The translations under genes were made by a program, and so were the position numbers. A stretch of 38,528 nt of DNA from Nitrospinaceae bacterium (lineage in GTDB: Bacteria; Nitrospinota; Nitrospinia; Nitrospinales; VA-1): contig JAJDAV010000081.1 in the NCBI GenBank assembly GCA_029261695.1, positions 1-38,528 of the forward strand. The letters are read 5' to 3'. The notes under the pieces were generated by a model. It had not been told where the DNA came from. It worked only from the letters and a program-made list of their open reading frames with translations, and made no database searches. Of the stretch, positions 18,912 through 22,716 are shown in pieces (positions within the stretch are counted from its first letter, which is position 1; each line of letters opens with the position of its first letter).

Positions 18912-21900
18912 TTAAGAAGGAGAATAAAGCGCTTTGTATATCCCTCGGTTTCTCAAAACATGTTTTACGTACCGTCGTGTTTCAGGGTAAGGGATGGATT
19001 CAATAAACACATCCAGATCATTTAAATGACCGAACCTTTTCAGCCATTTTTTTAGAACATGGGGACCGGCATTGTATGAAATTAAGATATGTGTGCCGTT
19101 TTCTCCAAATCGTTTGTTCAGTTGACTGACATATTTGACGCCCAGCCTGATGTTTAAATCGGGTTCGAATAACACATCGGCTTCAAAGGGTTTTTTTAAT
19201 TTTGTCTTGGGGTAAAGCTTTTTTCCCGTGGCCGGCATGATCTGCATGAGACCTCGAGCACCAGCCGGTGACAATGCCTTATGGTCAAACAGGCTCTCTT
19301 GCCGGATGATCCCATTTACAAAATAAGGATCAACTTTTCGATATTCTGAATTAGAAGTTACCTCTTCGTGGTAGGCAAGCGGGAAAAAATATTTCCAAAA
19401 TTTGGGGGATAACGAACGCTCACCCGATTTGGTGGCAAAGTCCTTATACAATTGCAGTAGCTTGAGCGACTCAGAGTATCCATTGGCATTATGGTAAAGG
19501 TTTGAAAGCCATAATACTCCTGTCAGGTTCTTTCGGATGGATTTTTCAAGGCGTTGTATTTCGTTTCGCGCTTCCGTTGTAAGTCCAATTGCTGACAATT
19601 CTTGTGCGCGGATGTGGTGAAATTTTTCTCGGGCATCCAACGGTCGGTCAAGCGTGACCGGGGTTATTTTTGCGGTGTCCTCTGATTGGTTTGCAGGGAA
19701 AGAAACTCCGGCTTTCAGCATTTTTTCTTTTGCACGAATTCCATGAAATGTATAAGGATACTGATTTGCTACATCCGTAAAAATTTCTTTGGCTTTTTCT
19801 TTTTCGCCGAGCTTTTCTGCCGATTTGGCACTCCAATATAGATTGTATTCAATGAAAGGTCCTTTTGGAAACCGGCGCGCAACATCCTGAAATCGTTCAA
19901 AGGCTTTTTGAAATTTTCCATCGATATAATTAACCCATCCAAGCCGCCATCCGGCCCACTGACCGTAAAAATTTTCAGAGTATTTGCCCAAAACCTGTTG
20001 GTAGAAATTTAGCGCTTCGGGATAATTCTTTCTTTCTTCATAAATTTTCCCCACAAAAAATAAGGCCTTAATAGCGTAGTCTGATGATGGATCAGCGGCA
20101 GCTACTTGTTCGAAATATTTTGCTCCAGGCATAGGTTTGCCAAGGTTCCAAAGGTTTCGACCGATGTTGAACTTGGCTTTTTGAATTTGTGCGTGATTTG
20201 GATAGAGCTTTGAAAACTCTTTTAATGCGACATTTGCAGTTCTTCTATCACGTAACCCGCGGTGAGCATTTGAGAGGAAAAAGAAAAACCTTCCGGGCAT
20301 GGGGTTGTTTGTTTTTTGAATTTCTTTGATCTCAGATATGATTTCTTTATATCGTACCCCTTTAAACAGTTTTTCAATTCTTACCGTATGCTCCCGTAAA
20401 GTTAAAGGAACTTCTTTAATATCCGGTGAAGCTCCGAGTCTTTTTATTGCAGCTTCGGCCTCGGGGGTAAGTTCGTGATTGGGGTATTTGATATGAAGTT
20501 GCCGGAAATTTAAATAGGCCTCGTTTTTTTTTCCAAGCTTCTCTTGATGTGTGGCTAATTTGAAAATGAGCTCAGGTAGATAAGGACGAAATCCTTTGTG
20601 ATAAAAAGAATTTTTCAATGTCGCGATTGATTCCTGCAATACTTCTTCCGCTTTAATTTCATCTTTGCTTTGAATATAAGTATCGGAAAGAATGATTTGG
20701 GCTTCCGGGTAAAGTTGCGTGTCTGGGAAATTCTTAAGAAGCTGAAGTACATTTTCTTGAGCCTGTTTATACTTTTTGCTTTTTGATTCTGCTTTTGCAA
20801 GGTTGAGTAAAATATAATCTGCAATTTCTGGATATTTTTTTACCAGAGGTGATAATGCCTCAATAGCCTTGTCGTATTTTTTATTCTCGATGTGTAGGAG
20901 GCCGAGCAAAAAACGAGAACGCTTACTTTCTATTGAATCTGGCGCGGCATTTTGAATGCCGAGGAGTTGGTTTTTTGCCTTGCTCCATTCTTTTTTTAGA
21001 AAATGATTTTTGGCTTGTTCGAAATCATTAGAAATATTTTTGGCTTCCGATTTAGAGCCGAAACCTAAAACAAGAAAAATTGAGAAAAGGCAGGCTGCTA
21101 CATTGGGTAGGCGAGAGAGCAGTCTGTTGCTGAGTGTTTCGGGAGTATCTTTTTTGTCGGTAGCGATGATTTGCGCTTCGGGCATTTTTCGAAACCAGGT
21201 GAGTTGACGTTTTGCGTAATGGCGGGTTTCCCGCTTGATTTCGTAAATCGCTCTTTCTAATGTTAAATCGCCTTGATGATAACGTGTCATTTGGGTATAG
21301 CCGATGCTTTTAAACGGTTTTAAATCGGTGGAGAAACCTCGATCAAGAAGGTTTTTTACTTCGTTTGCGAGTCCACCCTCGATCATGTTGTCAACTCGTT
21401 GGTCAATTTTTGCATAAAGCTCCGCCCGATTCCATTCGAGTATAAACGTGGAAATGGGGAATCGGTTTTCGGAGGTTGAGTCTTCTTTGTGGAATTCTGA
21501 AAATGGTTTTCCTGTTTCCATAAAAACCCCCAATGCTCTTTCAATTCTCAGGGAATCTGTTTCCGAAATTTTTTCTGCGAAATCAGGATCTACAGTTTGT
21601 AGTTTTTTGTAGACTTGTTCGACCCCAGACTCAAGGATATCTTGTTGAATATTTTTTCGGGTTTTATCGGATATTTCGACGGCGCAGTCATAATCCTGTG
21701 TAAGAACTTTGAGATAGAGAGCAGTCCCTCCAACTAGGATGGGGATTTTATTTTGACTCATCAGGTTTTGGATCGCATCCAGAGCCTTTGTTTTAAAATC
21801 AAATGCATTAAATTCCTCATCGGGTTCCAGAATGTCAATGAGATGGTGGGGGATGGCTTGCCGATCTTTCGCCGACGGCTTTGCTGTGCCGATGTCAAAG

Positions 21901-22022
21901 TATTTGTAAACCTGCATTGAGTCGGCGCTGATAATTTCGGTGTTGAGTTTTCGAGCCAATGCCAGGGCGGTTTCACTTTTCCCAGAGGTGGTGGGTCCCG
22001 TCAACACAATTAAAGGAATCAT
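18912..22022 (-). CDS. miaA: tRNA dimethylallyltransferase (MiaA) continuous in frame with a TPR-containing SLT lytic transglycosylase
   Basis: N-term VLTGPTTSGKSETALALARKL...ISADSMQVYKYFDIGTAKPS...RETRHYAKRQLTWFRKMPEA (MiaA); C-term NGIIRQESLFDHKALSPAGARGLMQIMPATGKKLYP...LGVKYVSQLNKRF...SYNAGPHVLKKW (SLT). No stop between. ORF-track start 22070; ATG at 22022 (MIPLIVLTGPTTSGKS) fits better. Confidence 0.85.
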   Translation of the reverse strand: MIPLIVLTGPTTSGKSETALALARKLNTEIISADSMQVYKYFDIGTAKPSAKDRQAIPHHLIDILEPDEEFNAFDFKTKALDAIQNLMSQNKIPILVGGTALYLKVLTQDYDCAVEISDKTRKNIQQDILESGVEQVYKKLQTVDPDFAEKISETDSLRIERALGVFMETGKPFSEFHKEDSTSENRFPISTFILEWNRAELYAKIDQRVDNMIEGGLANEVKNLLDRGFSTDLKPFKSIGYTQMTRYHQGDLTLERAIYEIKRETRHYAKRQLTWFRKMPEAQIIATDKKDTPETLSNRLLSRLPNVAACLFSIFLVLGFGSKSEAKNISNDFEQAKNHFLKKEWSKAKNQLLGIQNAAPDSIESKRSRFLLGLLHIENKKYDKAIEALSPLVKKYPEIADYILLNLAKAESKSKKYKQAQENVLQLLKNFPDTQLYPEAQIILSDTYIQSKDEIKAEEVLQESIATLKNSFYHKGFRPYLPELIFKLATHQEKLGKKNEAYLNFRQLHIKYPNHELTPEAEAAIKRLGASPDIKEVPLTLREHTVRIEKLFKGVRYKEIISEIKEIQKTNNPMPGRFFFFLSNAHRGLRDRRTANVALKEFSKLYPNHAQIQKAKFNIGRNLWNLGKPMPGAKYFEQVAAADPSSDYAIKALFFVGKIYEERKNYPEALNFYQQVLGKYSENFYGQWAGWRLGWVNYIDGKFQKAFERFQDVARRFPKGPFIEYNLYWSAKSAEKLGEKEKAKEIFTDVANQYPYTFHGIRAKEKMLKAGVSFPANQSEDTAKITPVTLDRPLDAREKFHHIRAQELSAIGLTTEARNEIQRLEKSIRKNLTGVLWLSNLYHNANGYSESLKLLQLYKDFATKSGERSLSPKFWKYFFPLAYHEEVTSNSEYRKVDPYFVNGIIRQESLFDHKALSPAGARGLMQIMPATGKKLYPKTKLKKPFEADVLFEPDLNIRLGVKYVSQLNKRFGENGTHILISYNAGPHVLKKWLKRFGHLNDLDVFIESIPYPETRRYVKHVLRNRGIYKALYSPS

Positions 22023-22716
22023 AAATCTGTTGCATCTCCATAGTATAGCTTCCATCTCTATTATAGACATAGAGTGGCGAATCGACTATTAAATCGCATT
22101 TCTTTTCTTTGATAGCATCCACCAAAAATATTTTTGCTTCTGCATTTTTGTGGCCGTGAATAAACCGGATTCGGCTGGGAAATAACCTTCGTTTCTCTAG
22201 CTCGCGCATGGTTTCAAGCAATCGGATGGGCGGATAGGTCAGAATAATATGTCCGTCTTTTTTTAAAAGAGCCTTCGCTTTGTCGAGCAGGCCTTGCATA
22301 TTTAGTTTCAACTCGTGTCTGGCAATGGCTTTCTCGGGATCGGGATTCGTGCGTCCCGAATTTATTTTTCGGTAGGGCGGATTGGATACGATCAAATCAA
22401 ATTGCTCTGGGGGGGGATTTGAGTCCATATCGAGAAAATTGCCCTTGATAATTTTTACTGGCATTTGATTTTTAGAGACATTTTTTTTGGCTATTTCGGC
22501 TGCTGAATCTTGAATTTCTATACCCGTAATTTCTAGCTTGGGTTCTCGAAAAATCATCAGGAGGGGGATGATGCCGCAGCCAGTTCCAACATCGAGCACT
22601 TTATGCCCTGGGGCTAAAGTGGAAAAATGGGCCAGCAAAAAGGGTTCAATAGAATAACGATAACCGGAGTCATTCTGATCAATGCACAGATCTTTTGTCG
22701 TTCGAGCAGAGTTCAT
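21973..22716 (-). CDS. tRNA1(Val) adenine-N6 methyltransferase-like (TrmN6/YfiC type) SAM methyltransferase
   Basis: VLDVGTGCGIIPLLMIFREP, IVSNPPYRKINSGRTNPDPEKAIARHE (NPPY motif plus ARHE). Confidence 0.8.
   Translation of the reverse strand: MNSARTTKDLCIDQNDSGYRYSIEPFLLAHFSTLAPGHKVLDVGTGCGIIPLLMIFREPKLEITGIEIQDSAAEIAKKNVSKNQMPVKIIKGNFLDMDSNPPPEQFDLIVSNPPYRKINSGRTNPDPEKAIARHELKLNMQGLLDKAKALLKKDGHIILTYPPIRLLETMRELEKRRLFPSRIRFIHGHKNAEAKIFLVDAIKEKKCDLIVDSPLYVYNRDGSYTMEMQQIYDSFNCVDGTHHLWEK

Follow-up and report, generated by a model that had tools for sequence, protein, structure and literature searches.

A miaA–slt gene fusion with an internal export-signal-like segment is retained across an order of Nitrospinota

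How can one uninterrupted reading frame serve a tRNA-modification enzyme of the cytoplasm and a cell-wall hydrolase of the periplasm? The question is raised by a gene in a MAG of a Nitrospinaceae bacterium (GCA_029261695.1, 220 contigs), which belongs to an order of marine nitrite-oxidising bacteria within the Nitrospinota. The window, by which we mean the whole stretch of DNA analysed (38,528 nt of contig JAJDAV010000081.1), carries on its minus strand a miaA–slt fusion gene (18912..22022) that starts at an ATG at 22022, ends at a TAA at 18914-18912 and encodes 1036 aa with no internal stop. The continuous MiaA-to-SLT frame described in an earlier note on this DNA is thus real, and its coordinates and quoted peptides proved exact. 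Briefly, a tRNA A37 dimethylallyltransferase (MiaA) with a complete C-terminal helix (aa 1-303, 21114..22022) is followed, with almost no linker, by a hydrophobic segment laid out like a signal peptide (aa 304-326, 21045..21113; NVAACLFSIFLVLGFGSKSEA, then K), by TPR-type helical repeats of a Slt70-like protein (~aa 327-880, 19380..21044) and by an SLT (lytic transglycosylase) catalytic domain (18912..19379), all on the minus strand. Immediately upstream on the same strand, a TrmN/HemK-type methyltransferase gene (21973..22716) overlaps the start of miaA by 50 nt. An AlphaFold2 model of the fusion protein (mean pLDDT 81, pTM 0.57) reproduces this layout, with a MiaA-like domain closing in a predicted helix at 294-303, a low-confidence stretch at 308-328 that covers the hydrophobic segment, all-helical repeats and the SLT domain.

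The MiaA half has the features of a complete enzyme. Residues 4-285 match TIGR00174 (E 3e-95, profile positions 1-282 of 288) at 318.6 bits against a curated cut-off of 148.65, and the P-loop (G9/K15/S16), catalytic Asp (D34), conserved Arg (R209) and WF pair (276-277) are present here and kept in all or nearly all relatives. Foldseek aligns this half to E. coli MiaA (2zm5) with a TMt of 0.83. Stand-alone MiaA proteins (E. coli 2zm5/3foz, B. halodurans 2qgn) share the same full-length domain, catalytic motifs and fold, but the fused MiaA has no stop codon and continues from its C-terminus straight through an export signal to a second enzyme. Within-genus comparisons gave pN/pS values of 0.13-0.20. 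Every genome of the order with a match carries one miaA, with the sole exception of G030, and no second, separate miaA was found in any of them. MiaB requires the product of MiaA; because miaA is single-copy and a MiaB gene is present in the genome of the window, i6A37 would have to come from the fused MiaA. Four individual cases deserve mention. G030 (a Nitrospinaceae OFTM191 MAG) holds two fused miaA–slt genes (L017 on C12 and L050 on C39, 77% identical), reflecting either duplication or a mixed bin. G001 has a frame break within its MiaA part (L008, C6:13444-13486), probably through an error or because the gene is damaged, with the junction still open. One locus (L026, G011) matches TIGR00174 over a shorter length because a stretch of its MiaA part translates as unknown residues (X). 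Lastly, G024, a 92% complete genome of the same family, lacks a miaA match, through either a missing contig or a true loss of i6A.

The second half resembles the Slt70 type of lytic transglycosylase. PF01464 matches aa 892-1002 (E 3e-25) with 88.7 bits against a gathering score of 21.3, and the ES, GLMQ and YNAG motifs of family 1 lytic transglycosylases are all in place, with the catalytic-type Glu909 lying in RQES. E909, Q927, N984, A985 and G986 are invariant in all 48 aligned rows that cover those positions. The SLT part finds Slt70 (1qsa) by phmmer at 1e-23, Foldseek aligns Slt70 1qte over 689 columns (TMt 0.60), and the repeats ahead of the domain are matched by Pfam TPR_6 and related profiles. 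The fusion shares with Slt70-type enzymes (1qsa/1qte, P. aeruginosa Slt 5ohu) the helical superhelix, the C-terminal SLT domain with its Glu and an export signal; it differs in that the signal is internal, after ~303 aa of cytoplasmic enzyme, and that the superhelix is TPR-rich and scores below two NCBIfam cut-offs, namely the Slt70 equivalog NF008631 (115.9 vs 536 bits) and the BB0259 flagellar lytic transglycosylase NF047373 (175.7 vs 234 bits). Since NF008631 falls below its cut-off, we describe this half as Slt70-like and do not file it as Slt70. Its within-genus pN/pS is 0.06-0.20. Taken together, both halves look functional, as judged from their conserved active-site residues and the presence of MiaB.

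To place the fusion in its lineage, we examined 77 Nitrospinota genomes, a set returned identically by class-level and phylum-level searches, of which 64 (families f1-f4, genera g1-g16) make up the order of the window. An uninterrupted frame spans the junction in 58 of these 64 genomes and an interrupted one in none; the 58 are separate assemblies, their fused genes are 37-80% identical, and three (G009, G010, G037) are single-contig assemblies. The remaining six have no readable junction, either because the contig ends before it (G016, G027) or because no miaA match was found (G024, G045, G060, G067). Two genomes (G012, G017) carry the fusion as two contig-end pieces, one of which retains an intact junction. 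Separate miaA and slt genes were found in none of the 64 genomes. The fusion is therefore a fixed feature of the order: no close relative has the separate genes that the earlier note named as a refutation, and such genes occur only in sister orders. The upstream methyltransferase gene is linked to the fusion in almost all loci examined and to miaA in some sister loci, so that the order methyltransferase–miaA–slt is kept.

The sister orders (13 genomes, f5-f9) show how such a gene may have arisen. Here miaA and slt are separate wherever they can be read: they are adjacent in eight genomes (G057, G058, G069-G073, G075) and on different contigs in three (G055, G056, G059). In five of the adjacent pairs (G057, G071-G073, G075) the genes and their order are the same as in the fusion, as is the upstream methyltransferase where readable, yet the two are separate frames with a stop and a start of their own, the slt ATG lying inside the end of miaA with an overlap of 1, 8 or 17 nt that is always out of frame. 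A 13-nt gap separates the genes in G069. Within the overlap, f9 genomes carry a Shine-Dalgarno (SD)-like GGA or AGGA ahead of the slt ATG, and the overlap of one sister-order locus (L105) pairs an SD-like sequence with the ATG (AGGATGTGTCATG). The separate slt genes encode a signal peptide at the position that matches the internal segment of the fusion. In trees, a single branch (89/96) separates all fused MiaA sequences from the rest, and the same holds for all fused SLT sequences (100/100). Sampling beyond the Nitrospinota took in six outgroup loci (L097-L102, from Thermodesulfobacteriota, Clostridia and others), whose retrieved flanks contained no slt homologue, either fused or adjacent. 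The separate arrangement of the sister orders is likely ancestral. The sister-order genes, separate but mostly neighbours and in many cases overlapping, point to a coupled gene pair as the source of the fusion, and the simplest history would be that this translationally coupled pair fused once, in the order's common ancestor.

The junction itself bears the marks of translated sequence. Insertions and deletions across it comprise whole codons only, and six within-genus comparisons gave pN/pS values of 0.07-0.43 for the MiaA tail and 0.28-0.43 for the hydrophobic segment, which indicates constraint on amino-acid replacement there. Furthermore, 848 of 3037 junction codons lie one substitution away from a stop, and none is a stop. 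By simple arithmetic, the chance that 60 random codons contain no stop is ~0.056 per independent saturated lineage, and the observed open junction is far beyond chance. Around the junction the fraction of identical codons is near the gene mean and not consistently raised, which gives no sign of a hidden RNA element or an overlapping start signal. The MiaA part lacks a stop codon, so a ribosome reaching its end has no choice but to read on into SLT.

What, then, might the segment between the two enzymes do? In all 52 aligned junctions, no other 14-mer of the protein is as hydrophobic (mean 2.40, compared with 1.58 for the best elsewhere), and the eight residues before the core average 1.9 K/R against 0.35 D/E. 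A strict [AVST]xA follows the core in 46 of 52, compared with 26% of 20-aa windows taken from the rest of the same proteins, a contrast between related rows that is not to be read as a probability. With a basic n-region, a hydrophobic core and small residues at -3 and -1, the segment has the predicted layout of a Sec signal with a signal peptidase I site, and the candidate site in the window falls between SEA and K. A signal peptidase I gene is present in the genome. A lipoprotein (signal peptidase II) signal was rejected on the absence of a lipobox: by eye, no lipobox Cys follows the core, the Cys of VAACLFS sitting at the start of the core. Strict A-x-A is absent from six loci (L011, L019, L025, L049, L051, L063). 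In genus g6 (L022-L025, L063), VMG or TIG replaces A-x-A in the c-region; these signals may be cleaved poorly or not at all, or may be anchor-like.

We favour, as the more probable account, a single ancestral joining of miaA and slt that yields an obligate single product, in which the SLT half would be exported by an internal Sec signal and then probably parted from MiaA by signal peptidase I. Hydrophobicity, the [AVST]xA motif, the preceding basic residues, the signal peptide of the sister slt proteins and the signal peptidase I gene are the grounds for this preference. Under this polyprotein model, neighbouring, overlapping miaA and slt genes would have been joined once, in the common ancestor of the order to which the Nitrospinaceae belong, and the joined frame kept since. 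Each ribosome completing MiaA would go on into SLT, the old N-terminal Sec signal of which would now lie inside the chain and bring the ribosome or the chain to the Sec translocon, while MiaA stays on the cytoplasmic side. The TPR–SLT half would cross into the periplasm, and signal peptidase I would most likely cleave after A-x-A, releasing a periplasmic Slt70-like lytic transglycosylase and leaving at the cytoplasmic face a MiaA whose C-terminus retains the signal segment as a hydrophobic tail. The predicted cleavage rests on the motif and on core length. Counting against it is the n-region, here an entire folded enzyme, an unusual arrangement among cleavable signals.

The main rival to the polyprotein model is an uncleaved bitopic protein, in which the segment would act as a permanent signal-anchor in the inner membrane, holding MiaA on its cytoplasmic side and SLT on its periplasmic side. 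Such a protein is compatible with the continuous frame, with basic residues ahead of the core that suit an N-in topology, and with the members that lack strict A-x-A; we nevertheless hold it unlikely, given that the core often spans only 13-18 residues, below the typical length of a transmembrane helix, and that the strict motif is kept so much more often after the core than elsewhere. Of the earlier note's proposal of a real fusion whose internal segment directs SLT as a signal-anchor, the fusion and the targeting role gain from order-wide fixation, whereas short cores and frequent A-x-A suit a cleavable signal peptide better than a possible anchor. Whether cleaved or not, MiaA may be held in the membrane at the Sec translocon, either within an intact bitopic enzyme or by way of a retained signal tail; we regard this tentatively, as a reasonable possibility short of an even chance.

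The other explanations fare worse. The earlier note had also offered an SLT product initiated within the MiaA tail at the in-frame ATG at 21183..21185 (minus strand), which would give two products, full-length fusion and SLT, from one frame. This ATG is indeed the sole in-frame ATG, GTG or TTG between WFRK and the core in the window, and an ATG occupies that codon in the window's genus and in g8 and g14 members, but it is not conserved and no SD-like motif was found upstream of it. Among 52 aligned junctions surveyed for ATG, GTG and TTG between the WF-K/R-K motif and the core, at least nine (L018, L020-L025, L045, L063) have no such codon, though rare starts such as AUU or CUG may occur, and a start accompanied by an SD-like motif occurs in just four (L035, L038, L046, L049). 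Sister orders show both elements within the overlap, which suggests a loss of the internal start in the fused order. Initiation in phase would moreover yield no free MiaA, because no stop is met before the end of SLT. An internal promoter for SLT was likewise rejected, no promoter-like site having been found near the junction on the minus strand. We consider two starts improbable, and reject an internal start as a conserved mechanism, since the codon is not kept among relatives. It is more improbable still that one half is active and the other a passenger: vestigial domains can persist in fusions and the TPR part is the faster-evolving one, but both active sites are kept, pN/pS is low in both halves, and a single-copy MiaA coexists with MiaB. 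Finally, the loss of a stop codon between two genes through a sequencing or assembly error might be suspected in a MAG of many contigs, but the same open junction in 58 diverged, separately assembled genomes, three of them single-contig, rules this out for practical purposes.

Gene fusions and internal signals are known kinds of arrangement. The closest mechanistic precedent is the fbcH cytochrome b/c1 polyprotein of Bradyrhizobium, in which one frame with an internal signal is cleaved by signal peptidase into two proteins; its parts are membrane subunits of one complex, whereas here the partners are a soluble tRNA enzyme of the cytoplasm and a hydrolase of the periplasm, and their roles are unrelated. 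No earlier report of a MiaA–SLT fusion was found in the open-access literature, and as far as could be checked an order-wide, obligatory fusion of a tRNA-modification enzyme to a periplasmic hydrolase is undescribed.

Fusions between cytoplasmic and periplasmic enzymes are expected to be rare because their halves must end on opposite sides of a membrane, and yet an entire order keeps one that carries its only copy of MiaA. For annotation, this means that Nitrospinota "MiaA" genes of ~1040 aa encode two enzymes. The order also offers a natural test of how a bacterial polyprotein may be split by an internal signal and signal peptidase, and of whether a tRNA-modification enzyme works at the membrane. 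If MiaA is indeed membrane-held, a tRNA-modification enzyme would be the N-terminal part of an exported polyprotein, and tRNA A37 modification and the export of a cell-wall hydrolase would be tied together as an obligatory 1:1 product.
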